Shown here one piece after another: positions 4,650 to 53,000 of a stretch of DNA of 60,962 nucleotides. Position numbers and translations under genes: made by a program. The stretch spans positions 1 to 60,962 of IMG/VR virus record IMGVR_UViG_3300045922_000164, one strand, 5' to 3'. How positions within the stretch are numbered: the stretch's first letter is position 1; each line of letters begins with the position of its first letter. This DNA comes from a virus. The notes below the pieces were generated by a model. The model did not search any database and had not been told where the DNA came from. It saw nothing but the letters and a program-made list of their open reading frames with translations.

Positions 4650-6297
4650 GGAACTCCCTCGTGTCGTTGGCGATCATCACCCGGGTCACCGTCACGTTCC
4701 CCTCAAGCTCGATCTCCCACCTCCTGCTTCTGAATCCAGAAGGCATCGAGAACTCAGCGTGATCTGTCACGGTTCTCGTGTGGCGAAGAAGCATCTGCCC
4801 GAAGGTTGGCGATGTCTTCACGTCGTCCGACGAGTAGACACGGATCGTCACAGGATAGGACTTCGCAGCGATCTTGCCCCACGAGTAGTTGATCCCTGGC
4901 TCGATCTCGTACTGCCTGCTCCTCCAGCGGTAGGTGTAAAGGGTGGTCTGGCCCTCGAACTTCACGATCTGCTTGTTCGGGAGGACGAGGAAGAGGGCAT
5001 CCCGTACGGGATCCGTGTACCCGGCCTCAGCCCACAGAGAGAGGAAGGAAAGAGGCTGAAGCTCAGCCTTCGGGTCGAAGATGAAACCCTGCTTCACACC
5101 GTTGTCGAAGAAGCAGACATACCTACCATTCCACGTGTAGGCGTGCATGGAGGCTGGGTTCAGCGATTGCCAGTACGACCTCTCGATCAGAGCCTCCGTG
5201 ACGAGCCTCGCCCCGGATGCGTCGACGGCGACGAGCCCGTTGTTGGAGGCGTACACCACGCCCCACCCCATCTCAACAATCGACCTCCTTGCGACGCACG
5301 CTTCATTGATGTCGAGGTTCTGGACGGTCATGTTGTCCGGGGAAGAACCCCAGATGATGGACGGCTTGCCGTTGGTGCAGATGACAGCGGTGTTCCCGAA
5401 GACGCCGATGCCCACCACAGGGTAGGGGACCGTCAGCACGTACTTCGACGGCCAAGCGTACGGCTTGAACGGCTCACAGAAGTAGATGTCGTTACCGACC
5501 GCTCCGATGATGATCCCGTTGGGCATGTTCCTGATGAAGCTCAGCCCAGCCGGAGGCATCTCGTAGTCGAGCGTGTTCAGGGTTCTCCCGAGGCTGCTTG
5601 AGGAAACGTTGTCGGCGAACGAGTTTGCGGTAGATGTGATCTCTGCGACGAACTGGTAGTCGGTGCCGGAGGAGGCCCCGAGGACAGTCCTGTAAATCCT
5701 GCGGCGGTTGATGTTGTGGTCAGATGGGGCGCTGTCGAAGAATGACAGGTTCACCGTCTGCCCGGGGATCACGTTGATCTCGAACGGGGGGCTTGGCTGA
5801 CCCTCCTCCCCATCTTCAGAGACGTACGTGTAGACGTAGGCGCGCGTCTCTATTGATCCCGACCCAGAACCGGACGCAGAACCAGAGCACGCGGTAGCTG
5901 GAGCGGGGATGCCGAGCTTCCTGCTCGCAATCGGGTAGTTCGTTCCGCCGCCGGTCAACGCCAGCGTGGAGTTGGTCCACCTCGGGTGGCCGAAGGCTGA
6001 GTCGCCGGTGAAGTAGGTCTTCTCTGCGGTGTCCCCGAAGATCTGACCCTTCACCACATCGACGACATCACTCCAGTGAAACCAATACTGAGTCTCGTCT
6101 GTGACGTTCTGCCCGAACCTGTAGATCGTCTTCGGGACTGGTGCCTTCGTCGTCGTCCAGACGTAGGAAGGCTGACGAAGGCCGCGAAGCGTTCCGTTGG
6201 AGAGAAAGCAGTCGACGGCAACCTGCGCCCCATGTGGGGGAAGGTTGACCGGATCGAGCTTCGGGTAGACGCCCCCGATAACCCTGATGTCGATCAT
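4639..6297 (-). CDS. Tail nozzle protein, T7 gp12-like (552 aa)
   Basis: The start IRVIGGVYPKLDPVNLPP followed by AQVAVDCFLSNGTLRGLRQP is typical of podovirus nozzle (tail tubular B) proteins. The body is a beta-propeller-like sequence with no catalytic motif. It follows directly after the gp11-like adaptor gene in the usual connector-to-nozzle order and overlaps the FN3 gene by 11 bases. It should form the hexameric end of the short tail. Confidence 0.75.
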   Translation of the reverse strand: MIDIRVIGGVYPKLDPVNLPPHGAQVAVDCFLSNGTLRGLRQPSYVWTTTKAPVPKTIYRFGQNVTDETQYWFHWSDVVDVVKGQIFGDTAEKTYFTGDSAFGHPRWTNSTLALTGGGTNYPIASRKLGIPAPATACSGSASGSGSGSIETRAYVYTYVSEDGEEGQPSPPFEINVIPGQTVNLSFFDSAPSDHNINRRRIYRTVLGASSGTDYQFVAEITSTANSFADNVSSSSLGRTLNTLDYEMPPAGLSFIRNMPNGIIIGAVGNDIYFCEPFKPYAWPSKYVLTVPYPVVGIGVFGNTAVICTNGKPSIIWGSSPDNMTVQNLDINEACVARRSIVEMGWGVVYASNNGLVAVDASGARLVTEALIERSYWQSLNPASMHAYTWNGRYVCFFDNGVKQGFIFDPKAELQPLSFLSLWAEAGYTDPVRDALFLVLPNKQIVKFEGQTTLYTYRWRSRQYEIEPGINYSWGKIAAKSYPVTIRVYSSDDVKTSPTFGQMLLRHTRTVTDHAEFSMPSGFRSRRWEIELEGNVTVTRVMIANDTREFRGG

Positions 6298-6935
6298 CAG
6301 TTGTTAACTGGCTTCGTCTCAAGTTTGCCGGCCCTCTTCATGTCGCCGAGTTGGGCTGCCTCGATGGCACGCTCGAAGAGCGCACTGTAGCCTGTCGCGA
6401 GGTTCGGGTCGAACCAGGGCGCGCCCTTCATCGCCATGAGGCGGGCTTTCGCTCCGTGGCTGATTGACTCGCCCCACTTCTCGAAGATGAAGTCATCGAA
6501 CCCGGGAGCGCTCCTCTTCGGGGCGCGAAGGAATCTGGCCCTCAGTACCCCAGTTTGGGTGGTCGCCGGATTCGGAGCAACCCAGAACTTCCCGTCGTTC
6601 TCGACGGTCCAGTATTGAGGGGTACCAACCTGCGTCTTCCAGTCGGTAAACTCCCTCTCGATGAGCCACCCTGCTCTGTAGGTCAGCGGCTTGCCCTGAT
6701 AGTGGATCGCTTCGATGCGAACAAGACGGTTGTCGGTGCCGATCTCTGCGGTTGGGATCGACTGCTCTACCCCACCACCGGTGAGATCGAACGGTGCTGA
6801 TGTCTTTCGCATCAGCCCGCCGCGTGCGATGAAGTCGATGGCGGCGAGCTTGATGTGGTGCTCGACGAGTGACTGAGGGGGGTTCCCCTTCAGCTCGTAG
6901 AGGACATCGGGAACGAGATCTGCCCAGACTGCCAT
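6297..6935 (-). CDS. Tail tubular protein A-like adaptor (212 aa)
   Basis: The N-terminal helical part (VWADLVPDVLYELKGNPPQS) and the later 'QYWTVENDGKFWVAPNPATTQTGVLRARF' pattern, given here only in outline, match gp11-like adaptors that sit under the portal in short-tailed phages. The gene is flanked by a small head-tail connector gene and the nozzle gene, and shares a one-base overlap on both sides. The role is inferred from pattern and order. Confidence 0.7.
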   Translation of the reverse strand: MAVWADLVPDVLYELKGNPPQSLVEHHIKLAAIDFIARGGLMRKTSAPFDLTGGGVEQSIPTAEIGTDNRLVRIEAIHYQGKPLTYRAGWLIEREFTDWKTQVGTPQYWTVENDGKFWVAPNPATTQTGVLRARFLRAPKRSAPGFDDFIFEKWGESISHGAKARLMAMKGAPWFDPNLATGYSALFERAIEAAQLGDMKRAGKLETKPVNN

Positions 6936-7252
6936 CAGGTCGCTCCAGAGAACAGTTGGAAGAACGCGGCAGCGCGCTCCTGCACTGACGCGGAGTCATT
7001 TCTCCATTCCGCTCGCGCCGTCACGTAGTCTGCGAGGGGTTGCTCGTACGAATCGGGAAGCGGGATCGGGTCGGTCAGAGAATACTCGTTTGCAGGAAGC
7101 GTTATCCCGAAGAAAAGATCCGGGCGCGCCGACCGGAGAAGCTGTACAGCAACGTTGGCGTACTTCAGCAGTTGCGCGTCAGAGAACCTCGTGTTGTCAT
7201 CGTCATTGAGCGGAATCCTGGCGAGGTTGACAACATTCTGAAACGTTCTCAT
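6935..7252 (-). CDS. Small head-to-tail adaptor-like protein (105 aa)
   Basis: This mostly helical protein contains LLKYANVAVQLLRSARPDLF, a pattern seen in small connector proteins of short-tailed phages. It lies between the capsid genes and the gp11-like adaptor. I infer that it helps join portal to tail. Exact family membership would need a profile search. Confidence 0.55.
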   Translation of the reverse strand: MRTFQNVVNLARIPLNDDDNTRFSDAQLLKYANVAVQLLRSARPDLFFGITLPANEYSLTDPIPLPDSYEQPLADYVTARAEWRNDSASVQERAAAFFQLFSGAT

Positions 7253-7255
7253 GAG

Positions 7256-7564
7256 TTACCCCTTCTTCGCCCTCTTCAGTTTGGCGACGAGCGCTCCCGT
7301 CGGCGTGTCCTCGGAGGCATCCTTCCCGAACAGACGCCTGTGCTCCGCGAGCAGCTCGTCCACCGTCATCTCGTCGTAGGAAGCTGGTGATTCCTCGAAC
7401 ACAGGTTGATCGTCAGGTGTGCGAACTGACAGGAACCAGCGCGCGTGCTCTTCGTTGTCGACGTTGCAGTAGCACGCTCCATTACCGGGGACGAACGTGT
7501 ACTCCACGCCTTCGATGACGTGCGTCACCGGAACCCTATAAGGCTCATTCAGCTTGATTCTCAT
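7256..7564 (-). CDS. Hypothetical virion-module protein (102 aa)
   Basis: The protein has a beta-rich first half (YRVPVTHVIEGVEYTFVPG) and a charged helical C-terminus (VDELLAEHRRLFG, ending LKRAKKG). Its start lies only nine bases from a strong hairpin and no clear ribosome site is visible, so its translation may depend on that structure. Position suggests a capsid or connector accessory. Family not recognised. Confidence 0.6.
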   Translation of the reverse strand: MRIKLNEPYRVPVTHVIEGVEYTFVPGNGACYCNVDNEEHARWFLSVRTPDDQPVFEESPASYDEMTVDELLAEHRRLFGKDASEDTPTGALVAKLKRAKKG

Positions 7565-10587: not shown

Positions 10588-11928
10588 TCAAAAACGTGCG
10601 CAATCATGCGCACCGTTCTCTTCCTGCCCCGACGCGTCCTGCTGACCGCATTCGTATCTGACAGGCGTGACTTTCCCGACTACGATGGGAACCATTCCCA
10701 CCGCAGTGCCGCCGTTGCCGGACGGGCTCGCCACGGGTAGGGCAGTTGCGGTTGCCAGCCGTTTGAGATTGAGCGCTGCATTCACGTCCCTGTCGTGGTG
10801 TGCCCCACATTGCAGACACGTCCAGCTCCGATCCTTGAGCGCGAGCGCCTCGTTCTTCCAGCCGCAGACTGAACAGAGGCGGCTACTTGGGTACCAGCGA
10901 TCGGCAATGATCAGCCGGGTGCCGTAGCGTTTCGCCTTGCATTCGATCTGCCTGCGAAATATACCAAAGCCCACGTCGCTGATGGCACGGGCCAGTCTGT
11001 CGTTGGCCAGCATGCCCTTGACGCGCAAGTCCTCGATCACCACCGCTTGGTTTTCACGGCAAAGACGGGTCGTGAGCTTGTGGGTGAAATCCGCTCTGAC
11101 ATTGGCAATACGGGCGTGCAGCCTTGCCAATGCCGCAGAGGACTTCCTGCGGTTGTTGGAGACTGGAAGGCGGGTGCCTTTGGGTAGCCTGGCTTGCGGC
11201 GCGAATCCAGCGGCAGCCTTGGCGGCTTCGATCTTGCGACTTACGCGCCGGCTACGGATTCTCAACCGGCGCAACGCCGCTTTGAGCGGCGCGGGCGCTT
11301 CGATGCCTTCGCCGCTCGAAATGGTCGCTGCTGCTTTGACGCCAAGATCGACGCCGACGACGCCGTTTCCGGTGCGAGGGCGATGGAAGACGCGATCTGG
11401 AACTTCAACCTGAATCGCTACAAACCAACGGTCCGCAGTGCGTGATACCGTTGCACCGAGAATCTTGCCATCGAAGCGCAGCGCTTCGGTCATGGCGACT
11501 TCACCCACCTTGGGCAGACGAATCGTTTTGCCGTTGGCCCGAAACCTGTCGTTGGAAACGTAGAATCTGTCACGACAGCGGCCCTTCTTCTTAAATTGCG
11601 GCTCATGCGCAGGTTTCCCCGCCTTGATGTCAGCGAAGAAACGATTCCATGCCTTTTCAAGATTCGCAAAGGGCTGTGCGTGGGCGTCCCGATGGATGGT
11701 CTTGAGCCACGGCTGCCCGTTTGCATCCAGCCATTCAGGATCGCGGTACTTGATGGCGTTGAACTGCTTTTTGAGCGCCATCGCGTGGGGCTTTCGCCCG
11801 GCCGCGTACTGCCGCTTCCATTCCGCAAGCGCCCAGTTCCACACCCGCCGCGCGGTGCCGCAGGCGCGGCCGAGATACTCGGCCTGTTCTGGGGTTGGGC
11901 AGAGGGCAATCTTGTGGGTCAGTTGCAT
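10588..11928 (-). CDS. tnpB: TnpB RNA-guided nuclease of IS200/IS605 type
   Basis: The RuvC-type catalytic sites all look intact: GVVGVDLGVKAAATI (Asp), VVIEDLRVKGML (Glu) and HHDRDVNAALNL (Asp), with the CxxC...CxxC zinc finger (SVCG and LQCG) between the last two. The N-terminal ATPEQ-type region and the rest are full length (about 446 aa). I chose the second ATG (MQLTHKIALCPTPEQ); four codons earlier is another. No TnpA is near, so it is a solo tnpB. The guide RNA of such proteins normally overlaps the 3' end of the gene; here a hairpin (GTGCGC/GCGCAC, 10597-10616) is at that end. Confidence 0.9.
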   Translation of the reverse strand: MQLTHKIALCPTPEQAEYLGRACGTARRVWNWALAEWKRQYAAGRKPHAMALKKQFNAIKYRDPEWLDANGQPWLKTIHRDAHAQPFANLEKAWNRFFADIKAGKPAHEPQFKKKGRCRDRFYVSNDRFRANGKTIRLPKVGEVAMTEALRFDGKILGATVSRTADRWFVAIQVEVPDRVFHRPRTGNGVVGVDLGVKAAATISSGEGIEAPAPLKAALRRLRIRSRRVSRKIEAAKAAAGFAPQARLPKGTRLPVSNNRRKSSAALARLHARIANVRADFTHKLTTRLCRENQAVVIEDLRVKGMLANDRLARAISDVGFGIFRRQIECKAKRYGTRLIIADRWYPSSRLCSVCGWKNEALALKDRSWTCLQCGAHHDRDVNAALNLKRLATATALPVASPSGNGGTAVGMVPIVVGKVTPVRYECGQQDASGQEENGAHDCARF

Positions 11929-11945
11929 GGTTTTATGCAAGCTGG
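10590..11945 (-). mobile_element. Solo-tnpB insertion, IS1341-like
   Basis: The element lies exactly between the stop of the Ser-rich repeat gene and the start of the 62-aa gene. Its left end carries an inverted repeat TTGCAT/ATGCAA (11923-11940) around the start codon. The right end carries the GTGCGC/GCGCAC hairpin. Both are the kind of subterminal palindromes seen in IS200/IS605 elements. Exact ends are not fixed by target duplication, as this family makes none. Confidence 0.55.
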
Positions 11946-26222: not shown

Positions 26223-27209
26223 ATGAACTGGACGAACGTTCTCAAAAATTGTGTGCAAGCTCAGGTCCCGGTGATCCTCTGGGGTCCACCGGGAGTCGGC
26301 AAGACCGCCCGGGTGGGCCAGTTGGCGGAAGAAATGGGCCTGCCTCTGGAGGTGGTTGTGCTCTCGTTGCGCGACCCCACCGATGTCGCAGGACTCCCCG
26401 TCGTGACGAATGACGGGGTGGTCCTGTCCCCGCCCGCGTGGGCGAAGCGGCTGGCTCAGGCCGGGAGGGGGATCCTCTTCTTGGATGAGTTTTCGTGCGC
26501 TGCACCATCGTTGCAGGCGGCCGCGCTCCGCATCCTCTCCGAGAGGGTCATCGGTGACACGCCGCTTCCCGACGGGGTGGCGATCGTCCTGGCCGCCAAC
26601 CCTGCGGACCAGGCCGCAGGCGGGTTCGACCTGTCCGCACCGGCGGCGAACCGCTTCCTGCACCTGTACGTGACCGCCGAGCCCGCAGAGTGGGCGACGT
26701 GGGCGGCAGGGAAATCTCGCGAGCATGCCCTTGTGGCCGGCTTCATCTCCCGCCGTCCGGAGCTTCTGTGCAAGGTCCCGAATGACGCTGAGTCGGCCGG
26801 AAAAGCGTGGCCCAGCCCGCGCTCGTGGGATTTGGGTGCGCGCGCCGTCCTCGCAGGGGTGCCGCGCGATGCCGCGTACCCGGCTGCGGTCGGGGATGGG
26901 GCTGCGTTGGAATTCCTGACTTGGGTCAGGGAGGCCGACCTGCCTGATCCCGAGGGCATCCTTGCCGACCCGGATTCCGCCACGTTCCCCAAGCGTGGGG
27001 ACATGATCCATGCGGTCATGCTGTCGGTGGCGTCCGCTGTCGCATCGAACCCGACTTCAGAGCGGTGGAGTGCTGCCTGGAAGTACATCGGGCGGTCCCC
27101 GGTCCTCGATGTCGTGGTCCCGGCTGCCCGCACTCTGGTGGCCGTGCGGAAGAAGGTGCCTTCGCTGCCGCTTCCTCTGGAGGCTGCGAAGCTTGGGGAG
27201 GTGTTGTGA
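26223..27209 (+). CDS. MoxR-type AAA+ ATPase (328 aa)
   Basis: Walker A is WGPPGVGKTA at residues 20-29 and Walker B is ILFLDEFS near 82-89. LRILSERVIGDTPLPDGV and LAANPADQAAGG match the second region of MoxR/AAA_5 ATPases (sensor 1 Asn in AANP). The ribosome site AGGAGAG is strong. These ATPases usually act with VWA proteins, one of which is encoded two genes downstream. They are thought to remodel protein complexes. Confidence 0.85.
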   Translation: MNWTNVLKNCVQAQVPVILWGPPGVGKTARVGQLAEEMGLPLEVVVLSLRDPTDVAGLPVVTNDGVVLSPPAWAKRLAQAGRGILFLDEFSCAAPSLQAAALRILSERVIGDTPLPDGVAIVLAANPADQAAGGFDLSAPAANRFLHLYVTAEPAEWATWAAGKSREHALVAGFISRRPELLCKVPNDAESAGKAWPSPRSWDLGARAVLAGVPRDAAYPAAVGDGAALEFLTWVREADLPDPEGILADPDSATFPKRGDMIHAVMLSVASAVASNPTSERWSAAWKYIGRSPVLDVVVPAARTLVAVRKKVPSLPLPLEAAKLGEVL

Positions 27210-27613
27210 CGACCGAGGAACTCGAAGCAGCGTGGTCGCAATTCAGAAGGCTTACCGAAGCGAGTCAAAAACTCATTCAGTTGACCAACGCATCAAGGAT
27301 TGAAGTGCGCACCAAGATGTTTCGGGTGCGCACCACAGGGGAAGAAATAGTCATCAATGCGATGTTCGCCACACTCCATCACCCGAAGGTAAACGGGCCA
27401 GTCTATGTGTCTGGCTACGGTCTCAACAGCTTCGCGAGAATGATGGAGAAGATGAGCGTTCGGGAGTTAGCCACCTTTATGGCAACCATTGACAAGGCCA
27501 CCTCGTGGTGTCTCGACAGAATCGAAGGACTCAAGCGCGCCGAATACAACGCCCGCTTGGGTCCGTCTGGGAGACAGGTTGCTGCACGGGTGGCGATGGA
27601 GAAGATGCCATGA
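27206..27613 (+). CDS. Hypothetical helical protein (135 aa)
   Basis: GTG start in a GTGA overlap with the ATPase. Helical ends flank a beta-rich middle (IEVRTKMFRVRTTGEEIVIN). It is between the ATPase and its VWA-type partner and overlaps both, so it likely works with them. Not recognised. Confidence 0.7.
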   Translation: MTTEELEAAWSQFRRLTEASQKLIQLTNASRIEVRTKMFRVRTTGEEIVINAMFATLHHPKVNGPVYVSGYGLNSFARMMEKMSVRELATFMATIDKATSWCLDRIEGLKRAEYNARLGPSGRQVAARVAMEKMP

Positions 27614-28836
27614 CTGACATCCGTTTACAGAAGGCTAGGGTGCGTGCGATGAGCACCCACCCCTATCTCGCCACAGCCCTGATGGCGCTTCAGCCTGTGG
27701 AAAAGCCCATCGGCACGATGGCGGTCGACTCCGGGTGGAGGTTGTACTACGACCCGGCGCAGGTAGAGACGTGGGGGACCGACAAGTCAGCCGGTGTGCT
27801 GATTCACGAGGTCGCCCACTTGCTCCGCCGGCACGCTGAAAGGCGCGGTCAACGTGATCCGCGCACGTGGAACATCGCGTGCGACGCCGAGATCAACGAC
27901 GATCTCGTGCAGGAGGTTGACCTGCCGGCGGAAGGCATCCTGCCGCAGACCCTTGGTCTCAGGGAGGGGCTGACTGCCGAGGAGTATTACAAGATCATCG
28001 AGGCGCAGCAGTCCGCCGCACACTGGTCGGGCGAGCAATCCCCCGGCGGCGACGGCGACGGCTCCTGCGGCGGTACAGGCGAAGGCGACAGCGATGCCCC
28101 CTCCGCCCAAGGCCGCAGCCCCTCGGTGACCGCAGGCGACTGCGGGTCGTGCGCGGACGGGGTGAAGCGTGAGTATGAGCTTCCCGCCGACGACGCTGAC
28201 GCACCAGGGATCACTGAGGCGGAAGCGAAAGCCATCGCACGCTCTGTCGCTCGTCAGATCGAGAGCGCCAAAGAGCGCGGCACGGTCCCGGGCGGGTGGC
28301 GCAGGTGGGCGAGCGAGCAGCTTGCGCCCCCCAGGGTTCCCTGGCAGCAGGTTCTTGCGGCCACCGTGCGTCGGACTGCGCAGACTGCGGCGGGTGTGGG
28401 GGACTACACGTACGCCCGTCCAAGCAGGCGCGGCGTCAAGGGGGTGATCCTCCCGGCGAGCCGTCGTCCGATTCCGGCGGTGTCCGTGGTCGCGGACACG
28501 TCCGGCTCGATGTCTGGCTCGGACATTGCGTCGATTCTCAGCGAGATCGACGGCATCTGCCGCACGGTCGGGCGCGTGAGGTGGATCGCAGCGGACGCCA
28601 AGATTCAGGGCAGCGGGGTCGCTACCAACGCCAAAGGCGTGCGTCTGACCGGCGGTGGAGGGACCGACCTCCGTCCTGCGATCGCGGAGGCGGACAAGGG
28701 GGCGGACGTGATCGTAGTCCTCACGGACTGCTACACGCCGTGGCCCCTCAAGCCAACGCGAGCGCACATGATCGTCTGCGCCACCCCAGGATCCACAACG
28801 TCACCCGCTTGGGCACGTAGGGTGGAGATCAGCTAA
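27610..28836 (+). CDS. Metallopeptidase-like/VWA protein (408 aa)
   Basis: The zincin motif HEVAHLLRRH is near residue 63. The middle is Gly/Ser/Asp-rich and probably disordered. The C-terminal domain (VVADTSGSMSGSDIASILSE near residue 295) has the DxSxS metal-binding loop of VWA folds, with later GTDLRPAI and VLTDC. This order matches the DUF2201/COG3864 metallopeptidase-plus-VWA type that pairs with MoxR ATPases. Overlaps the preceding gene by ATGA. Confidence 0.85.
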   Translation: MTDIRLQKARVRAMSTHPYLATALMALQPVEKPIGTMAVDSGWRLYYDPAQVETWGTDKSAGVLIHEVAHLLRRHAERRGQRDPRTWNIACDAEINDDLVQEVDLPAEGILPQTLGLREGLTAEEYYKIIEAQQSAAHWSGEQSPGGDGDGSCGGTGEGDSDAPSAQGRSPSVTAGDCGSCADGVKREYELPADDADAPGITEAEAKAIARSVARQIESAKERGTVPGGWRRWASEQLAPPRVPWQQVLAATVRRTAQTAAGVGDYTYARPSRRGVKGVILPASRRPIPAVSVVADTSGSMSGSDIASILSEIDGICRTVGRVRWIAADAKIQGSGVATNAKGVRLTGGGGTDLRPAIAEADKGADVIVVLTDCYTPWPLKPTRAHMIVCATPGSTTSPAWARRVEIS

Positions 28837-28848
28837 CGGTTCGGCTTG

Positions 28849-29119
28849 CCGCCACCAGAGTGCCCGCTGCCCCGGCGGACTGCACGATGACGGTGGCGGA
28901 ATACCGAGGGCTCACGCTTCGCAAGGAGACCTCCGGTCTCAACTTGCTCGCGTTCGCCTTCACGCGACCGTTTCTCTCGATTGGCTCCAGTGCGTAGCGC
29001 CCGACGCTCCGTCGGACCGCGCGATGACCGCACGGACAACATGCCGAAGTTTCTAGGCTTCTGCGCTTCGCTTCGCTGCCTTGGGGCGCTCCGCTCAGCT
29101 TGCGAAGCCTACAAACTTC
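28849..29119 (+). ncRNA. Structured RNA candidate upstream of RT
   Basis: Four stems lie between the VWA gene and the RT gene. CCGCCACC pairs with GGTGGCGG (28850/28892). GCAAG-GAGACC pairs with GGTCTC-aa-CTTGC (28921-28947). A nested hairpin (GTGCG, GCGC, CCGACG / CGTCGG, GCGC, CGCAC) spans 28990-29033. A long arm at 29046-29062 pairs with 29103-29119 with one mismatch. It ends 18 bases before the RT start codon. The position and the long last hairpin resemble the msr-msd region of retrons, but no clear a1/a2 repeat was found. Confidence 0.5.
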
Positions 29120-29137
29120 ACACGCAACGAGGCTCTC

Positions 29138-30244
29138 ATGCTGTATTACATCGACACAAACTCCTTCTATCCTGGTCTGATTCGACCTGCCTACACGATC
29201 AAAACGATCAGGAATGGGGGGAAGGAGCGCAAGCTCTACATCTCGTCCGACATTGTGAGCAGGAAAAACCTGCGCGTTATGGCAGCCAGATTGGCGAAGC
29301 ACATCGACGAACGCAGGTACATGCACGACCACGGCTTCCGCGGTGGCCGCTCTCCGGTGACGTGCGCTGCTTCACTGAGGGGCAGGAGGTACTACCTGTC
29401 CGCCGACCTCCAGGACTGTTTCCCCTCCACGACTCGTGAGATGGTGAGGCGCGGCCTGAACTTGGCCGGTGCGTCGATAGACGACGACCTGCTGGAGATC
29501 ATCACGCCAGATGGCGCTCCACAGCAAGGCATCCCGACGAGCCCGATCCTTGTGGCGATCGCCCTCAAGGCTCTCGACATGGAGATCGTGAAGCGGTGGC
29601 CTGGGGTGCTCTACTCGCGGTATGCGGACGACCTGAACTTCGCGACAGACTCGCTTGAGGTGGCGCGCGAGATCAGGCGCGAGCTTCCTGGGATCGCCGA
29701 CCGTCTCGGGTGGAAAGTGAACCCGAGGAAGTGGCAGATGACCGACTCGAAGGTGTGCCGGCCGGTCATCTGTGGCGTCGTGCTTGACGGGAATAGAACG
29801 CGCCCGACGCGCGAGTTCCGCAAGGTGCTTCGCGCAGCCGAGCATGCAGGATCAGACTCCTACCGCACGAGAGGATTGCACGGGTGGACCGCTACCGCAG
29901 TCCGTGAACTTCCTCCACACGGCCGTCCTGTGCGCGCTGATAATAGGGGGTGGGACATCACTTACCGAGGGGTGAGTCTGAAGGCTGTACTCATCAAGGG
30001 TGACTGGTACTACGAGGCGCCATCCGGACCACGCTCACCGCTGACGCTTGCCAAGCACCCAAGGATTCTGATCCCCTCTCTGTATCGGGCGTTCCACTTC
30101 GACGGTGGGTTCATGCTCGACAGGATAGACAGGGTGTGGAGGCTGTGGTCGCACAACAACGTGATAGAGAAATGGGAATCGCGACCGAAGTGGGATTACG
30201 TAAAGTCGTTGATTGCAATCAGGAAGCTAGAGAGGGAACTGTGA
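29138..30244 (+). CDS. Reverse transcriptase with C-terminal extra domain
   Basis: Retron-like RT order is visible: HGFRGGRSPVT (res 65-75), catalytic SADLQDCFPS (Asp90), PQQGIPTSPILVAIALKALD (128-147), YADD (162-165), then GWKVNPRKWQM and VICGVVLDG (209-217). Retron hallmarks are altered: NAxxH is CAASL and VTG is ICG. Residues 269-368 form an added domain (W.I.YRGV.LKA...W.Y....KWESRPK) like the small proteins encoded downstream. Start ATG at 29138 follows ACGAGG. It could be a divergent retron, an abortive-type RT or a new class. Confidence 0.85.
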   Translation: MLYYIDTNSFYPGLIRPAYTIKTIRNGGKERKLYISSDIVSRKNLRVMAARLAKHIDERRYMHDHGFRGGRSPVTCAASLRGRRYYLSADLQDCFPSTTREMVRRGLNLAGASIDDDLLEIITPDGAPQQGIPTSPILVAIALKALDMEIVKRWPGVLYSRYADDLNFATDSLEVAREIRRELPGIADRLGWKVNPRKWQMTDSKVCRPVICGVVLDGNRTRPTREFRKVLRAAEHAGSDSYRTRGLHGWTATAVRELPPHGRPVRADNRGWDITYRGVSLKAVLIKGDWYYEAPSGPRSPLTLAKHPRILIPSLYRAFHFDGGFMLDRIDRVWRLWSHNNVIEKWESRPKWDYVKSLIAIRKLEREL

Positions 30245-30606
30245 GCTTGCCTCCATACGGCAAGATCATCATAAAGATCGGCGACAACAGGTGGAGCATC
30301 TGTTGGAGAGGCATCCCGATGGAAGCTGAACGCAGGGACGGAGAGTGGAGGTACTACCACACAAACCCATCATTACGAAAACAAACCTTCGGACGAACGC
30401 CGCGATATGTGGCCCAGAATATTAGTCGAGAGATTCACATCGACAGAGAGTTTCGCCTTGTGCGGTGGCATGGCATGTACGGGAGCTGGTACCTGTACAT
30501 GGGAAATGGCTATCACGCATCGGTTATCAAGGCTTGGGAGAAGAGACCAAAGCGCAATGAGTTGTTGGCCACCATCGCGATGGCAAAGCTAGAGAGGAAA
30601 CCGTGA
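30241..30606 (+). CDS. Paralogue of RT C-terminal domain, copy 1 (121 aa)
   Basis: GTG start overlaps the RT stop. Residues 15-121 (NRWSICWRGIPMEAE, then FRLVRWHGMYGSWYLYMGNG, ending ELLATIAMAKLERKP) match the RT C-terminal domain: W-I-x-W/Y-RG-I/V, W at the next strand, KAWEKRPK and a final IA..KLE helix. This is a stand-alone version of the domain. Function unknown; it could bind the same RNA or protein partner as the RT. Confidence 0.75.
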   Translation: MSLPPYGKIIIKIGDNRWSICWRGIPMEAERRDGEWRYYHTNPSLRKQTFGRTPRYVAQNISREIHIDREFRLVRWHGMYGSWYLYMGNGYHASVIKAWEKRPKRNELLATIAMAKLERKP

Positions 30607-30974
30607 GAAAGCCGCCGCACGGGCGTGTCGTTGGAAGAGTGAACGACACGACGTGGAGAATCCTCTGGAGAGGAATCCAGATGGAGGCCGCCGCTGAACA
30701 CCACAGGTGGGTTTACCGGTGCGACGACCCAATACGCGCCAACGGGACGGCTGGCTATACGCCACGTGAAGCGGTCAAGTATTGCGGCAGGGTAATTGAG
30801 CTTGGCGGCGGATTCAGTCTCGTCAGGCTGTGCGGCATGTACGGATACTGGTATCTGTACAAAGGATCGCGCTACTCGAAGTTCAGTCGCATGGTCTGTC
30901 AGTGGGGAAAAAGGCCGCCACGCAGCGTAGTGTTGTCAACCATCGCACTGGAGAAGCTGGAGGAAAGCACATGA
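30603..30974 (+). CDS. Paralogue of RT C-terminal domain, copy 2 (123 aa)
   Basis: GTG start in a GTGA overlap. Shares TTWRILWRGIQMEA, FSLVRLCGMYGYWYLYKGS, then QWGKRPPR and a final STIALEKLE with copy 1 and, more distantly, with the RT tail. Copies 1 and 2 are about a third to a half alike by eye. The array probably arose by tandem duplication. Confidence 0.75.
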   Translation: MRKPPHGRVVGRVNDTTWRILWRGIQMEAAAEHHRWVYRCDDPIRANGTAGYTPREAVKYCGRVIELGGGFSLVRLCGMYGYWYLYKGSRYSKFSRMVCQWGKRPPRSVVLSTIALEKLEEST

Positions 30975-31159
30975 GATCGGAGGAAGAGCACTACTTGGAC
31001 GAGAAATACTTCATCTCCAAGAGGAAGACAAACGATGGTGAGGAATGGATCCTATGCAGGAACGGATTGACGTTTGCATGGATCCTGCACAGGTGGAAGG
31101 ATAAGCCGTCCATAGAGGAAGCGATGGCGACAGTTGCCATATTGAAATTGGGAGCATAG
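30971..31159 (+). CDS. Short paralogue of RT C-terminal domain (62 aa)
   Basis: ATGA overlap with copy 2. It keeps only the second half of the domain: EEWILCRNGLTFAWILHRWK and KPSIEEAMATVAILKLGA match FRLVRWHG...W.LY and W.KRP....L.TIA..KL of copies 1 and 2. A shortened family member is more likely than a degraded pseudogene, given the intact overlaps. Confidence 0.6.
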   Translation: MRSEEEHYLDEKYFISKRKTNDGEEWILCRNGLTFAWILHRWKDKPSIEEAMATVAILKLGA

Positions 31160-43773: not shown

Positions 43774-44054
43774 AGAACTACCTCGTTGACGAGGAGAGAG
43801 AGCGCCGGCTCAGGGCACAGGTCGAGTCTGCCCTGCGCCGGATCCCTCCTGAAGTCGTCAACGGCGGAGTGATGAGGGCGCAAGCCTACAAGCGGTGGGC
43901 TGAGGAAGCCATCAGGATCCTGAAGAACCCGAAATCTGTGCCTGGGCAGTTCGAGTCGCTCATGTTCCACCTGAACTACCTGTGCAGCGACGAGTTCATG
44001 GTCGCACCTTCTCGGCCGTCTTCTTCGCCTCCTCCCGAAGACGATCAACCCTGA
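43767..44054 (+). CDS. Small helical protein after SSB (95 aa)
   Basis: GTG start. Charged helix (DEERERRLRAQVESALRRIP), then MRAQAYKRWAEEAIRILK and a Ser/Pro tail. The last 59 bases overlap the converging end of the giant virion gene, so the two transcripts are antisense there. Confidence 0.6.
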   Translation: MVKNYLVDEERERRLRAQVESALRRIPPEVVNGGVMRAQAYKRWAEEAIRILKNPKSVPGQFESLMFHLNYLCSDEFMVAPSRPSSSPPPEDDQP

Positions 44055-47000
44055 CCTGCACCCTGCGGTCGAACTCCTCCTGCGTGATCCCACGGCGGGC
44101 AAGCTGCCGGGCGAGACCACGGATCTCCTCCTCCGTGCGCTCTTTGTAAGCCTTGAACTCCTGCACAGCCCTGAGCCTCATCTCGTCAGGCGGGTAGGAC
44201 TTGATCTTCACCCCGACGGATGACGCGAGAGCCTGACCAAGGCTCACTTCTCGCCCGAACGGGTCGAGCTTGCCTCTCAACGCAGACTCGATGGCCGTCC
44301 AGCTCCACGTCTGGAAATGGCCGGTCTCCGCCATCGGGATGACGTACCCCGGTCCGGGAAGAGGCAGGTTCGGCATCATCGCTTTGAAGAACCAGTCGCC
44401 GAACTTGATCGCCCGCTCAAGAGGGGTGTCGTTCTCGTCGATGATGGGCTTCCCTGTGAACTGGGACTTGTTGACGAAGAACTCCGCCATCAGGGACAGG
44501 GGGCCGCCAACGGAGAGCCAGTCAGGAACCGGGATGATTGCCTGGCTGGATTGCACGTCGAAGACGCTCCCACCTGGGACCCAACGGCGCACGTCGAGGA
44601 ATACCGGGGAGCCGTGCCGGTCGTTCCATGGCAGCCTGATCATCCTCGGGAAGATGCCGAAGACCCGACCGGAAAGCTCTTCCGGCATCAGCCTGCGCTC
44701 GCGCTCCTCGTCGCCGTCCGCACCAAGCAGGGAGTACGCGAGCGAGTTGAGGACGCTGGCGATCGTCCAGTATTTGGCGATCTTCCACGGCTTCTTGAAT
44801 GCCGTCTCGATCATCAGCGGGATCGCCCGGTAGCTGAACGCGATGAACGGGAGCCCGGTCCTACGGGCGGCCTGAACCCAGGGAGCGTTGATGTCGTAGT
44901 TCAGGAACGCATCACGTGCGGCCTTCCCGGCTTCGATGTCGCTCTTGCCGGCGTCGATCTCGCGCATGAACTTCGCCAGACGGAAGACCGAATCCTCCTG
45001 CTGGTAGAGGGAAACGAGAGTGTCGAACGGAAGTCTTCCTCTGCTCAAGAGAGACTTCGTGGCGTCCATGTTGCCCTTGAGCGACATCCAGACAAGCTGC
45101 ATGACCGATATCTTGCTGATGTCGGACTCGTTCAGGCTGCCCTCGATCTGCTTCAGGATCGGGCTGATGAACTCCTCGTTGATATCTGCGGCCACGAAGC
45201 TGCCGTACTCCGCTCCGCTGTCCTCGTAGCGGTTCATCAGGGCGACAGCCTGCGGGTCTCCCTTCTTCGCCTTGATGATGACGTTGAGCGCACCGATGAT
45301 GTCCCTCACGCGAACGTCGGCAACGTCCGCCATGATGAAGTTGGACATCACGTTGTTCATGTGGACCGACGGGCTGAGTGCGGTCTTGCTCTTCTTCCAG
45401 AACCTCAGCGTGCTGTCCCACAACTGGGAGAGCTCGCCCTCCGGGACAGCCATCGCGGTCCGGATGTCGTTCCAGATGACGCCGGGGAGAGCGCGACCAG
45501 CCAGAGCGCCATACTTGTGGATCTTCGTCCCCTGCACGTAGGTGCTTGGCACGATGACCCACTCGTCCCTGCCGTAGGTCTTGGTCGTGACGAATCCCTC
45601 TGAGGCCGGGACGATGTTGTCGACCTCCTTCGGATCCTTCGCGTACTCCCTGTTCACCCACGCCAGGAACCTTGCTGTCTCCACGTCGCGGACGGCAGCG
45701 ATGACCGTCTTCGCGAACGCGTACTTGACTTCCTCGATCTCTCCCAGTCGCTCCCGCTCCTCCTTCGTGAGGTCGCGCCACATGCCGACCTGGTTGTTCT
45801 TGTCGAAGAAGCGGGCCTCCCAGATCCCCTCGGCCTGATGCCCAGGCGGGTGGACACCAGCTTGCGCGGCCTGGAGCGGGACGTACTCGACGCTCCTGAG
45901 CCTGCCAGCTTCATCTCTGCGCTCGAACCGGACGAACAGGTCGCCCTTGTTCACCTCGTCGGTGTACTTGATCAGGGCATCATCCTTCACGTCGTCCCTG
46001 AGTCCGCGACCCCTGAAGTTCTCGGCGCGGATCGCGGCAGACCGCTTGAAGGACTTCATGAGCGTGCTGCCTTTGTCCATCAGGTGGCGAGCGTAAGTCC
46101 TGTGCAGGTACGCCATCAGGTTGCGGTTGTAGCTCTCCTCCGAGAGAAGACCCAGAGCGACAGCCTCCCGCCCAAGCTCATCCACGAGCTCCTTCATCTT
46201 GAGCAGGTGTTGCCGGCTGTCCTCAGGCAACCTGGCCATGAGACGCCTTTCAAGCTCGGTGTCAGGCTTCTCGGACATCCACAGGTACGCGATCCTGCTT
46301 TCCTCCTTCGTGAGGTTGGCAAGGTGGTCGAGGAGATTCTTCGACTCCCTGAGCCTGCGGTTGATGTGCGCCCGCTTCACGATCTTCGCGTCAAGGTAGG
46401 GCTCAGGCAGACCGTAGTCAGCGATCAGGCCGTGCGCCGCCTTCTCAAGAAGCGGGTGCTTAACTGTCTCCATCCGGCCTACGGCATGCAGCTTGTCCCA
46501 GATCGGAGACGTGATGTGCTTGGCCAGAAGCTCGAAGCCAGCCTTCTTGAAGACGAGATCGATGAGGCCGGAGTGTCCCTCGGTCGTCATCTGGGGGGCG
46601 ACCGAGTAGAACGGCTTCGGGGCCAGGTTCAGGGTGCTCTCGCGGATGAGCTTCGTGACAGCGTTCGTCCTCTCATTCTCGTCCTCGATGTTCACCGCGT
46701 CAGCCAGCTTCCCGGCCTGATCGAGCCTCAGGAGAGCCTCCGTGATCGCGACCCTTGAGATCGTCCTGTTGCCTGCGGCGACGATGTACGGGTTGACACT
46801 GGTGGTCGGCTCCGCCCTCTGTGTCTCCCCCTCCACCTTGACCCTGGCCAAAGCCTCATCGAACGCCGGCTCGTTGTAGAGGGACATCACGTCCCTGAGC
46901 CAGATCGCCATCGAGCCGACGGTGTGTTCTACGTTGTCACGGTAGATCCTGAGTCCGGCGTCATACTGGTTGGCATGCAGGCCGACGTGGTCCGTTTTCC

Positions 47001-50000
47001 CCTCGCGCAAGATCGAGTTCAGGGTGGCCTCAGCCCTCCTGATGAGAGCCCTGTCGCTCAGGCCGAACGGGTCGCCGACGAACCTCCTGTTCGTCGCCGC
47101 CGCCCACTTCATGATTGCCTGATAGATCAACGCCCCATCGGTCACGTTCTGCGTGAGGCCGATCATGTTGGCGACAGCAGTCTTGTCGTCGAAGTAGACG
47201 GTGGCTTGCGCAGTCCTCGGGATGCTGTCAGGCGGCTCACCGCGCTCAGCGGACAGCTTTCTGATCTGCTCGTCTGTGAGCTTGACCTCGATGTCCCACT
47301 TGCTGTGGGGCTGGAACGACGCGACGCCATTGAGGCTGAGGGTTGGTGACGCCTCCTGGTACGCGAACATCTCTCTGGCTGCCCGCAGAACAGGCGACTT
47401 CGTTGCTGTGATTTTTCCTCCAGACGCCTGCGTGAGGATCTTGTTCAGGTCTGAAGACTTGACGATCTTGTAGTCGAACAGCTTCCTGTTCTTCGCGAAC
47501 GCAAGGAGAGCAGCGCCAACACGAGCCTCCGTGGCTGCGCTCCGTTTGTCTCTCAGCTTCTTCGTGTCCTTGTAGACCCCAGGAACAATGTCCCCGGGGT
47601 ACTCGACGATGATGTTCGAGATGTCGCCCTCGTCGAGTCCGTCACCGTAGTCAGGCTGCTCTCCGAAGATCTCGGTCTCGATCCACTGGTCCTCCCCGGA
47701 TGTGGAGAAGAGTGGCACTGTGCGCGACATGAACTTCTGCATCATGTCGTCCGTGATGTCGAACCCCAATTGGGTTGACTCTTCGCCGTCGTAGTACGTG
47801 AAGACCTGTTTTACTCGATCTCCACCGAGCTTCTTCAGCACATCTTCGGCAACCATCGGGACGATCTTGTCGTAGAACTCAAGCATCCCTGTTCCGCCGA
47901 ATGATTCATCGACTTGAATATCTACGGCGTCGTTTTTCTTCTTTGCTTCATCTAGGGCAGAGAGAATTTTTTTGGTAAGCTCTTTGCCGAACAACTCATG
48001 CACGCCAAGTTTTTTTGCAACGTATGCAGAAGGTCCGTGCGTAACCATAAACATTGTGTTGTTGTTTTCAAGAACTCCCGATAGAACTGTGTAATGTTTT
48101 TGTGATAACCAAACGAGTCCAGTCTGAGTCACCCTGATTTTGTCAACAGCCTTCCTGAGATTATATCTATAAGCCTGCTGTGTGCCGGTTGTCCATGCAA
48201 CCTTGCGCGCTCCGCGCACGATTGCCTGATTGATCGCTGACTTGAGCGCCAAAGAAACCCAAGACTTGGTTTCTTGGATAAATGGCCCAGAAGGCGTGTA
48301 CTGGTACGACTTGAGGCGACCTAGCTCTTGCCTTGTCTTTTCTATCTCAGATTGAAGGAGTTCACTGTCGTCTTTAGATGATCTCGCAATCAGATCATCA
48401 AGCTCTTTCTTAAGCCTGAAATACGACTGCCCCTTCCTGTAGTCTTGTGCCCAGTCGCTCTGAATTTCCTGTATGAAGAATACAGGCTGACCGTCCTGAC
48501 CCTTCCTTATGTCATAACGCAAATGGAAGATTCTGTTTTTCTCGATGCCACCGAACATCCTGTGTGTAATTAGCACTTTGTAATTGATTTCTCCTGTGGC
48601 TGGTTCCCCAGCGTCGAGCGCAAGAATGCCGGCTTCAGATATACGATCCTTGGACAGTTCGTAGTCTGTGTATTGTATGAATGGGACGCTCTCAATAGAT
48701 TCGAACTCTTTGTAGTCAGCAGCGCTCTTTGCTATTTGAGTAGCCTCATTCACGGCTCGCTCAATAAGACCCTCACGTGGCCAGTAATCACTCAGATTGT
48801 ACTCGGTTATCTTCCTGTTTGTTCCCCAAACAAATACCTTGTCTTTCTTCACTACTACATACCCGGCTCCTGCCGGACCATACGCAACGAAAGCGTTCTT
48901 TGACACCCATCCGGCTCGTCTACCTGTATAGATCGCCTGCCTTTCTTTGATGTACTCTGCGCCCTCGATTGCACTAAGCACATCTTCCTTCGTGAGCTTT
49001 TTCTTCTTTTCTTTTGCGAGCTCGATGACCTCCCTGACTCCGGTCCACGCGATCTCGTCCTCTTTCACCCCCTTGTTCTTCAGGCCGTTGATGATGTTCT
49101 CCCACTGGTCTGCGGGTGCGGAGTTGACCTTCAGGTCCCTGACAGCCTTATGGAGTGGGCTGTAGGCCCACCAGGGGATGCTGGTGCTGAACTTGACCCG
49201 GCTCTGGACCGGGACTGAGGTGTGCTTGCGCCCGATCAGGACTGCCGCCCCCGAGCGCCCGAACTCGCGGGTGAGGTAGCCGTCGAAGCCGGCCTCGATG
49301 ACCGCCCTCTCGAAAGCGTTCCTGTCCTTGCTGACGAGGTTCAGCGGGTCGGCGTCAGCGTCATAGAGGTTGCGCAGCCTGACGGTATGCTCTTGGCTGC
49401 CGACGACAGACTCAGGGTGGATCCCTGAGCCGGTGTCGAAGTAGAAGTAGATCCGGTGGCTTAGCTCTGGGTCTGACTTGACCCGCTCCCACTCGTCTCC
49501 CCTGTGGTTGCGTCCGTAGTAGGCTCCGTTGAGGAACTGCCTCCGCTCGCCGGAGAAGTGGTGGCCGACGACTTCGACGGAGTGCTCTCGCGGCTCCCCG
49601 TAGACGGCTGAAGTTTCCTCTCCAGCGCTCGCCTCAGTTGCTCTTCCGCGCCCGCCATCGGGTCGCTCGAACTGGGCGACCCACCCTTCGAGCCTTTTCT
49701 GGGCGTACGCACGAAGGCGGTCGGCATCAGCACGCCTGCTCCCCCGAACACCTTCTCGTCCGGCCCCAGTTCCCTCCACGACCTGATTGCCATACCTCGT
49801 TCCCTCCAAGTAGGCTTCCGCGCTCCCTGGCTCGATCCAGTCGGAGCGGAAGCGTTTGACTCCGACATCGTACTCCTGATCCTCCGACGCGAGCGCGCTC
49901 CTGATGGCGCTCAGGAACGAGTCGTCGGAGGCGTTGGTGAAGTTCCCGATAATGAGGTGGCCGTCCTTCACCGAGTACCCAATCGGCGAGTTCACCGCGG

Positions 50001-53000
50001 ACGACACCCTGTCCACCATCCTCCCGAAGAGTTCCTCAGCCTCCGCAGGCGAGATGCCGCCGTCCTTCGTGATCGTGACGAACGAGGTGACACCATTACC
50101 CTCGGTGACGGACTCGTCGTACGCGATCATCGCCTTCTGATCGAAGATGTAGCCGAGAACCTTAGCCACCTCAACTGCATCATCAATCGACGACTTCGGC
50201 AGGTGGACGATGAAGTTCGGAGACGACTCGTTCATGAAGCCGCCGACGGAGTGCTCGATCCTGAACGGGATGCCCATGTCGTTCAGAACACGAGGCACGA
50301 TAGAGCGAGCCACCGACTCGCTGATGAGCTTCAGCGCGCGCTTCGGGAGAGCGGTCAGCCGCTCTTTGAGCTGTCCTTCTCCTGGGACGACTTCTGCGTA
50401 GACCCCCGTGTCCTCTCTTTGCTTCGGTGCAACAGAGTACGAATGAGATCCCAGTTCGGGTTCCAGTCCAGAATCGGGATATCCTTCTCCACGATCCTGT
50501 TCCTCTCTTCGAACAAGTCCTCTTTTCTCGGCATAACGTGTCACCTCCGTTCCGTAATCGGTGAGCAGCTTCCTGTCGGTCCTCGCACCGAGACGTTGGT
50601 AATAGATCTTCTCCGGGTACCAGAGAAGGGCTTGCAGGTCGGCGACCTCAAGGTCGTACCCGCGCTTGCGCATCCTCCCAAGGAGGTTGTTCATCACGCG
50701 TCGGATGAAGTCGCGCTGGGCCGCGCTACGTGGCGCGTCACGCAGGGGGCTTCTCTGCCCGAGTTCGTCCTCGAAGTCGACGACCTCCTTCTCCGGAAGC
50801 AGGATGTCGCCAGTCAGCCGACCGATGGTGCGCATCAACCACTGATCGATGGTCAGGAACTCGTACCTGCCCATCAAGTTCGGGAAGAATCCGGCCCCAA
50901 CCTTCGACCCGAAGATGACAGCAACAGGCAGCTCGGCGTCGACAAGCTCCTTGATGTTCTTCAGACCGAATGCCTGCTTCGTGATCGAGACGGGCTGGAC
51001 CTCCAACATTCTCTGGACGAACCCGTCCACCCCATAGTGCCTGATGATCGCGTTCGCGCGAGCGAACGAGTTCACCATCTGGCGAGCTCTGACGACAGGT
51101 TTCGCTCCCGGGTACATGACGATGTAGCTCTTGTCCTCGGGGAGCTTTCTGTTCTGCTCGTAGTACCCGTAGACCTCGAACGCTGTCCTCACGTTGTCGG
51201 ACACGCTCAGTCCTGGAGACGTGATCGCCAGGATGAACGCGAACATCGCCCGCCCATCAGGTGTGCCGATGCTCGGGTAGACCTTCGCCGCCATCTGCAT
51301 GGCGGTCTCAAGGTTCTTCCGGTACCAGTCGATCGCGTTGTCCGGGTCGTCCATCGCGTGGATGGCCTCAGCCTCCAGGATCTCCGCGATGAAGTTCACC
51401 GCCTCATCATCGAAGCTCTTCAGAGGACCGCCGAAGGTCTTCCTGTAGTTCTCTTCGAGGAACCTGCCGATGGCTTTGAGACCGGTCTTCTCGTCGTCTG
51501 AGTTCGTGACCCTGACGTTCTGCTTGAGATCTTGGTCTCCGTAGACGACATCGATGAGCGAGACCGCACGCTGTTTGTCGGTGAGCTTCGGTGGGGCGAC
51601 GCTGTATGCGGCAGCCCTCCTTCTGGTGTCAGCGATGTCTTGCGGCGAGATTGTCAGCGTCTCCCTGCCGCTCTCGGTTTGAACGGAAACCGTCCTACTA
51701 TTCTTCCCGCCTCCCTTGAGCATTCCGCGAAGACGCTCGACTTCCTTCTTCGGGATAAAGAGCAGTCTTCCGTTGTACGCCTCATCAAGGACGTGAGCTG
51801 CGCTCGCGTGCTTGCCGTAGAGGGTCGCGACCTGAATGACCTTGTTGACTGGGCCGTCGCCATTCCTGAGGTTGCCCTTCTCAAGAACGGCAAGCAGTGG
51901 GTGACCTTCTGGAGAGATGGCCGGCAGGATGACGCTTACCCTCTTCGCCTCATTGAAGTTCTTCACCGGGACGCCATTCTCATTCCTTGGGTCCAGGATG
52001 GCCCTGGGCTGCATCGCGAGAAGTTCTGGCAGGGCACCGATGATGTTCGAGTCGATGCCTTCTGTGCCATGACGCTCGCGGATGTGTTCCACCGTGCCGC
52101 GATGAAGGGTTACCGGCGCGTTCGTGGAGACGCCGGCAAATCCGTATTCCCTTGGTAGCGACCGCGCAATCGTCACCTCGGGGAAGCGCTCTTGAACATC
52201 TCCTACGTTTTCAACCCAGTTCTTTAGCAATGTGGAGTATTTGGTGCCCTCAGCAGGCTTTCTGACCTCTCCGGTCGATCTTCCGGAGATAGCCCTGATG
52301 AGACCGAACGCTTCAGCGTCAGAGATATCGCTGACATCGCGACCGGTGACGCGCTTGATGTAGTGCTTGACCCTGTTGGCGAACCGCTTGATCGCTGCGA
52401 TGATGCCGGGCTTGAATTGGTCTGGAACCTCCAGACCGTACCGCATCCGGATGGCGTCCGTCCTCCCTGTGCGGATCGCAGCCTCAAGCTCTGCTCCAGC
52501 CTCCTCGATGGCTTGCGTCATCGCGACTGCGGCTCTCGCGTCGCCGGCAGCCCTCTCCTCCATGATCCTCGTCGCGAGGTCTCGGATGAACCTGTTGCGT
52601 CCGAGTTCGGCGATGTCGGCCTTGTAGCCCTCGCTCTCCCTGACAGCCTTCCCGCGATGGAAGAGTTCGTGCCACGCCACCCAGGCGGCGCGCTCTTCCG
52701 CCGTCATCAGGACTTTTCCAGTCCTCGAAACGACCGGTCGGATCCGGTCAGCGAAGATGGTCAGGGTGTCTGTGGCGTCGTCGTACTGGGCCTCAACACC
52801 TTCCGGCACGGAGGAGAAGAGGCGGCCCTGCTGGTCAACCTGGTCGGCGCGCGCAACCTTGATCCTCTTGGCGCGCTCTGCGCCCACTCCTCTCGCCACG
52901 ACTCTGGCGACAGCGCGAGACAGGAGGCCGCCCTCCTCCTCGAACATCCTGATCTGCTTCTCAAGGTCGGCCTTCTCCAGTTTGGCGGCCTGTACTGCCT

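Follow-up and report, generated by a model that had tools for sequence, protein, structure and literature searches.

A probable phage-borne retron-like element with two tandem RNA units and a reverse transcriptase whose C-terminal domain is repeated downstream

A reverse transcriptase (RT) locus in the IMG/VR virus record IMGVR_UViG_3300045922_000164 (a single record of 60,962 bases, analyzed at its full length and hereafter referred to as the window) was characterized in this study, and probably represents a phage-borne retron-like RNA–RT element. This assessment concerns the element itself and does not extend to the decoy role considered below. The locus contains two tandem copies of a structured RNA unit, an RT that adjoins retron RTs, and three small overlapping open reading frames (ORF2 to ORF4) related to the C-terminal domain (CTD) of the RT. 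Relatives compared here carry L numbers and are metagenomic contigs. The search for the same gene order in other phages proposed by the initial annotation, which was made from the sequence alone, revealed one near relative, L001, whose DNA is 92% identical to that of the window and which keeps the complete arrangement (RNA, RT, and ORF2 to ORF4); the array of CTD-related genes was found nowhere else.

Two tandem RNA units upstream of the RT

The initial annotation described about 270 bases of stable hairpins before the RT. Structured RNA is indeed present there, across approximately 300 nt between the stop codon of a DUF2201/VWA gene and the RT start; what had been overlooked is that this region consists of two tandem copies of one RNA unit. 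Each unit is predicted to comprise a bulged 7-bp closing stem, an msr-like hairpin, and a longer msd-like hairpin (z values give fold stability relative to shuffled sequences):

28837..28973, + strand: RNA unit 1 (fold z = -3.3, and -4.0 in L001; compensatory stem change relative to L001)
28849..28899, + strand: H1, msr-like hairpin of unit 1 (fold z = -3.4; 18 pairs in common with H3)
28906..28961, + strand: H2, msd-like hairpin of unit 1 with a variable stem (from folding; stem rebuilt in L001)
28974..29137, + strand: RNA unit 2 (99.4% identical in L001; aligns end to end with unit 1)
28987..29035, + strand: H3, second copy of the msr-like hairpin (found by a model from H1 alone, E = 7.6e-7)
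29046..29119, + strand: H4, long msd-like hairpin directly upstream of the RT start (fold z = -2.8)

The closing stem of unit 1 (28836-28843/28965-28971, 7 bp with a U bulge) encloses H1 and H2, and that of unit 2 (CTCGATTG/CAACGAG, 28976-28983/29125-29131) encloses H3 and H4. H1 is composed of an 8-bp outer stem, inner stems of 4 and 6 bp, an ACY bulge, and a GATGAC internal loop, and the 16-nt arms of H4 are 94% complementary. As a whole, positions 28837-29140 fold at -127 kcal/mol (z = -2.3). When an enclosure of the a1/a2 type was looked for, folding predicted two candidate units directly upstream of the RT, with short bulged closing stems and msr-like plus msd-like hairpins.

Units 1 and 2 are true copies of one RNA unit. 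They align end to end (only 2 of 2000 shuffled pairs aligned as well), and H1 and H3 form the same 18 pairs, all of which are intact and six of which differ on both sides. The covariation score of the two hairpins is 0.47 against 0.21 for shuffles, with none of 500 shuffles as high. When only H1 of the window and L001 was used to build a covariance model, the model recovered H3 at the E value given above, the next best place in the 61 kb scoring E = 0.15. Comparison with L001 shows both compensatory change and conservation: the H2 stem is built from other complementary bases in the two contigs (GAGACC/GGTCTC in the window against AGCCCC/GGGGCT), and no stretch of the region is better conserved than unit 2 (99.4% against 84-97% for neighboring genes). 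The shared hairpin core CGGACYGCRCGATGAC, used as a pattern against 2.9 million viral contigs, identified 61 loci, among which only that of L001 adjoins an RT.

An RT adjoining those of retrons

The RT gene and the CTD-related genes follow on the same strand:

29138..30244, + strand: reverse transcriptase, retron-like (PADLOC retron models up to 90.5 bits; tree; fold)
29888..30241, + strand: CTD of the RT, the domain repeated downstream (similarity to ORF2 to ORF4)
30241..30606, + strand: ORF2, stand-alone CTD paralogue of 121 aa (GTG start within the GTGA overlap)
30603..30974, + strand: ORF3, second stand-alone CTD paralogue, 123 aa (matches the RT CTD; 41% identical to ORF2)
30971..31159, + strand: ORF4, half-length CTD-like protein of 62 aa (weak similarity to the C-terminal half; conserved in L001)

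The RT (ATG at 29138, stop at 30242-30244) has 368 aa, of which residues 1-250 form the RT proper and 251-368 the CTD. The YADD and QGIPTSP motifs named in the initial annotation are both present, and Pfam RVT_1 matches at E = 6e-15. Its best-scoring PADLOC models are all retron RTs, led by RT_IX, and the NCBIfam model of retron St85 scores 71 bits, compared with 45 for group II, 17 for Drt3a, and 13 for Drt2. Similarly, a sequence search of the PDB gave scores of 52 for Kva2, 43 for Ec86, and 34.5 for a group II RT. In the structure model the pLDDT is 85-97 across most of the RT core, the CTD being poorly modelled at full length; the top 17 matches of its fold search in the PDB are retron RTs, followed by DRT2, group II, DRT9, and diversity-generating retroelement (DGR) RTs. 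Profile models, PDB sequence search, tree, and fold therefore agree that the RT adjoins retron RTs and not those of DGRs, group II introns, or DRT/Abi systems.

The view that the system belongs to no known class consequently holds for its arrangement, which occurs in no family library or paper searched, and not for its parts, since the RT is nearest to retron RTs and the RNA is retron-like. The RT thus lies beside a known class, in which this exact operon was not found.

CTD paralogues encoded downstream

The overlaps that led to the prediction of one operon were confirmed, with GTGA at 30241 (RT/ORF2), GTGA at 30603 (ORF2/ORF3), and ATGA at 30971 (ORF3/ORF4). The accompanying claim that three small proteins match the CTD is better put as two and a half: ORF2 and ORF3 are full paralogues, with 32-33% identity to RT residues 256-366 (E = 1e-12 and 2e-9), and ORF4 is half-length and weakly similar (profile E = 0.04-0.2). 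The AlphaFold model of ORF2 (pLDDT 87.7) has two beta-rich, helix-ended halves, and the length of ORF4 would fit one of them.

Purifying selection was identified in every testable reading frame (RT, CTD, ORF2, and ORF3), with ratios of nonsynonymous to synonymous substitution (dN/dS) of 0.16-0.40. The RT has a ratio of 0.16 and its CTD one of 0.22, and ORF2 and ORF3 reach 0.37-0.40, compared with 0.07-0.09 for the adjoining AAA and VWA genes. Because of these values, ORF2 and ORF3 are regarded as real genes that evolve faster than the rest of the region. A CTD profile searched against viral contigs matched L001 only, so that the domain and its copies are found in just these two contigs. No effector family was recognized in the CTD or ORF2 to ORF4, and none of the known effector types is encoded with the RT.

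A clade of RTs from viral contigs

With a profile made from the RTs of the window, L001, and L068, 165 related sequences were retrieved from viral contigs. A carefully built tree of 56 RTs contains one clade (support 98/94) of 16 viral-contig RTs, among them that of the window, which is separate from the bacterial retron RTs sampled. The tree placement suggested by the initial annotation thus puts the RT next to retron RTs, in a group of its own. Besides that of the window, the clade includes the RTs of L232-L240, L242, L244, L246, L249, and L068, and L078 is its sister (support 97/88). The clade is known here from viral contigs only, which were what the clade-profile search covered. Phage isolates were also searched and yielded no clade member near enough to point to a laboratory phage. 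A first quick tree had L068 as sister of the window RT; this pair is absent from the better-sampled tree, which retains the clade.

Members of the clade carry the signature HGFxxGRSxVTNAxxHVG, QGLPTSP, YTRYADDLTFS, GRRIxTG, and PTRxxRRKLRAAxH, and most of them keep NAxxH and VTG/ITG. Their C-terminal parts vary. A common RT-fused C-terminal domain with WTSC...RxYG motifs was observed in L234, L237, L239, and L240; Pfam identified nothing besides RVT_1 in the RTs of L234, L237, and L240. Separately, L240 contains a GOLLD RNA (Rfam RF02032, E = 2e-43) inside a tRNA array at 1-2284, approximately 3.6 kb upstream of its clade RT.

RNA units upstream of other clade RTs

Multi-unit RNA arrays recur upstream of these RTs. 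L078, a 144-kb phage contig, contains four tandem retron-like units (2691-3700), each with an 18-bp closing stem, upstream of a 316-aa RT. Their first hairpin is constant and the remainder variable, and two units folded alone reach z values of -9 to -10; this is probably the clearest multi-template array. In the 101-kb phage contig L244, four units occupy approximately 900 nt (5015-5915) upstream of a 436-aa RT, with UGUUUCG/UUGCUUCGA-type loops and outer stems that all differ yet remain complementary. L236 has three units spaced 122-127 nt apart (5519-5850), in which a constant loop CCCAACCCC and then a constant GCGACCACTCCC are combined with three different stems. A 70-nt direct repeat (98.6% identical) lies upstream of the clade RT of L249 at 5018-5087 and 5384-5453. 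The msd-like sequences of L244 and L078 were compared with their own phage genomes and had no outside match beyond chance.

Upstream folds of 250 nt reached z values of -4.5 to -7.3 for six RTs (L232, L233, L236, L240, L244, and L068), compared with -2.1 to +0.3 for coding controls; several other clade RTs showed no such excess of stability over shuffles. When the 700 nt upstream of each RT were scanned blindly for repeats (threshold z of at least 3), 4 of 16 clade loci and 7 of 166 other RT loci were flagged, with L078, L244, and L249 above z = 4 and L236 above z = 3.

The topology of H1 (an outer stem, a short 5' loop, an inner stem, a 2-3-nt 3' bulge, an apical triloop, and a 5-6-nt 3' loop) also occurs, as judged by folding and not by a covariance model, before the RTs of L233 (loop GAUGAC, as in the window), L234 (GAUGA), and L237 (AGAUA, with the bulge ACC as in H3). 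An H1/H3 covariance model run on the clade loci gave only a correctly placed, sub-threshold match in L237 (E = 0.6), no better than in random loci.

Neighboring genes and the carrier phage

Two genes precede the RNA on the same strand:

26223..27209, + strand: AAA (MoxR-like) ATPase gene (Pfam AAA_5, phrog_1297)
27505..28836, + strand: DUF2201 metallopeptidase/VWA-like gene, ending one base before the RNA (Pfam DUF2201_N, E = 2e-50, and DUF2201)

An AAA and DUF2201/VWA pair was identified near the RT, on its strand, in the window, L068, L233, L238, and L078 (in the last case downstream of the RT, at 5027-7506), and in none of the loci L005-L061, which had been retrieved with a DNA pattern that has no relation to RTs. 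L235 encodes a different pair, MoxR and VWA, downstream of its RT. The AAA and DUF2201/VWA pair may either work with the RT or mark a common insertion site.

The genes of the window (portal, major head protein, internal virion protein, terminase, and replicative helicase) point to a podovirus, and the genes scanned showed no integrase. The window also encodes a polyvalent protein of 3,929 aa with a lytic transglycosylase (SLT) domain and LPD37 (43996-55785, - strand) and, within the structural gene cluster, a transposase-like gene (phrog_506; 10588-11940, - strand).

Discussion

The closest RTs with solved structures are those of the retrons Kva2 (type IX) and Ec86/Eco1 (type II-A). As in these systems, a structured RNA directly precedes the RT gene of the window, and the protein has QGxPTSP, YADD, and a thumb region with a degenerate VTG; Ec86-like loci share a UGUUUCG hairpin with the clade members L237 and L244. 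Unlike them, the window RT (only 22-28% identical) has degenerate NAxxH and VTG motifs, a duplicated RNA, and a podovirus as carrier. It also has an RT-fused domain with paralogues in place of their partner proteins, that of Ec86 being an NDT/winged-helix protein. The Kva2 partner is a HEPN/winged-helix protein (PMC13405049). The other members of the viral-contig clade resemble the window in their structured upstream RNA, in the multi-unit arrays of L078, L244, and L236, and, in several contigs, in the AAA and DUF2201 genes; they differ in their C-terminal parts, in mostly keeping the retron motifs, and in lacking the CTD array outside L001. In the open-access literature, no paper on tandem msr-msd units or phage retron arrays was found.

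Several observations weigh against a retron-type element in the window. Its RT reads CAASL at the NAxxH position (region X) and, as in L068, ICG at the VTG position (region Y), and because both motifs were looked for and are absent we prefer the term retron-like to retron. The RNA matches no Rfam family, its bulged closing stems reach only 7 bp, and its msd-like sequences match nowhere else in the phage. The window was not singled out by the blind self-similarity scan of the 700 nt upstream of the RT (z = -0.7), because its unit copies have diverged too far to be recognized by plain sequence comparison across such a stretch, and the H1-like hairpin of L233 was missed by the covariance model. 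The CTD paralogues lack a fold relative (nothing below E = 0.03 in PDB and BFVD fold searches), and the reverse-transcribed product of the element is a predicted one.

By analogy with retron biology, an early operon transcript would carry two tandem retron-type RNAs, each with a closing stem, an msr-like hairpin, and an msd-like hairpin. The RT would bind each msr-like hairpin and reverse-transcribe the msd-like hairpin, so that infection would yield two distinct single-stranded DNAs, branched or RT-bound. The CTD and ORF2 to ORF4 might bind the same RNA/DNA–RT complex, or the same target, and form mixed complexes. Conflict would be their likeliest use: such complexes could silence retron-type or other DNA-sensing suicide systems of the host, and each host system might be countered by a different msd hairpin. 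That these DNA/RNA–protein complexes serve as decoys or antitoxin mimics against host defense is a tentative hypothesis. A comparison for how it might work is the pseudo-ToxI of phage PhiTE, an array of RNA repeats mimicking the antitoxin RNA of the host suicide system ToxIN (PMC3475682); the comparison is of function only, as pseudo-ToxI has no RT and no DNA product and its RNA is unrelated. Equally tentative is the broader proposal of virus-specific multi-template retroelements, in which a constant RT-binding hairpin would be combined with exchangeable template hairpins, several multicopy single-stranded DNAs (msDNAs) would act as decoys or antitoxin mimics, and paralogues of the RT tail would be adaptors.

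Alternatively, and somewhat doubtfully, the RNA–RT complex might guard the infected cell against rival phages, the CTD proteins being effectors silenced by msDNA, which would be the usual logic of a retron transferred to a phage. In bacteria, retrons act as tripartite suicide systems in which RT-msDNA keeps the effector in check (PMC12548924; PMC13405049), and both the variable C-terminal parts of the clade RTs, which recall swappable retron effectors, and the position of the CTD genes as the fastest evolving of the operon (dN/dS 0.37-0.40) would fit such an exclusion system. However, the CTD proteins have no recognized effector domain, the domain is fused to the RT and copied, unlike a single toxic effector, and the record looks like a podovirus without an integrase among the genes scanned. 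A role as decoy or antitoxin mimic is slightly favored over exclusion, given the multiplied and diversified RNA and the lack of a recognizable effector.

It is unlikely that the hairpins are simply a cis-regulatory leader that controls translation or stability of the RT mRNA, duplicated without any template role. The 3' side of unit 2 overlaps the ribosome-binding region of the RT (CAACGAG at 29125-29131; ATG at 29138), so the RNA can couple to RT translation; however, a leader would need neither two full copies, in which the internal loop is conserved while the outer and msd stems vary, nor the four-unit arrays that L078 and L244 carry over approximately 1 kb, nor the recurrence of this hairpin topology before other clade RTs. 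A DGR, a group II intron, or a DRT/Abi system is very improbable even though all have related RT domains and BPP-1-like podoviruses carry DGRs: the RT has QGIPTSP instead of the DGR SQ motif (motif 4) and the window lacks a template/variable repeat pair (the region matches nothing longer than 18 nt elsewhere in it), Rfam identified no intron RNA and Pfam only RVT_1 without a maturase domain, the tree excludes the group II reference, and the Drt3a and Drt2 scores (17 and 13 bits) contrast with 71 bits for the retron model.

Work on retrons has treated them as weapons that bacteria use against phages. The present clade, which was found only in viral contigs and has structured RNAs of its own in arrays of one to four units, suggests that phages took up or kept retron machinery for purposes of their own, and also that a single RT can naturally serve several templates. 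If true, this would be useful, as natural multi-template retrons would be what genome-editing users now build by hand.
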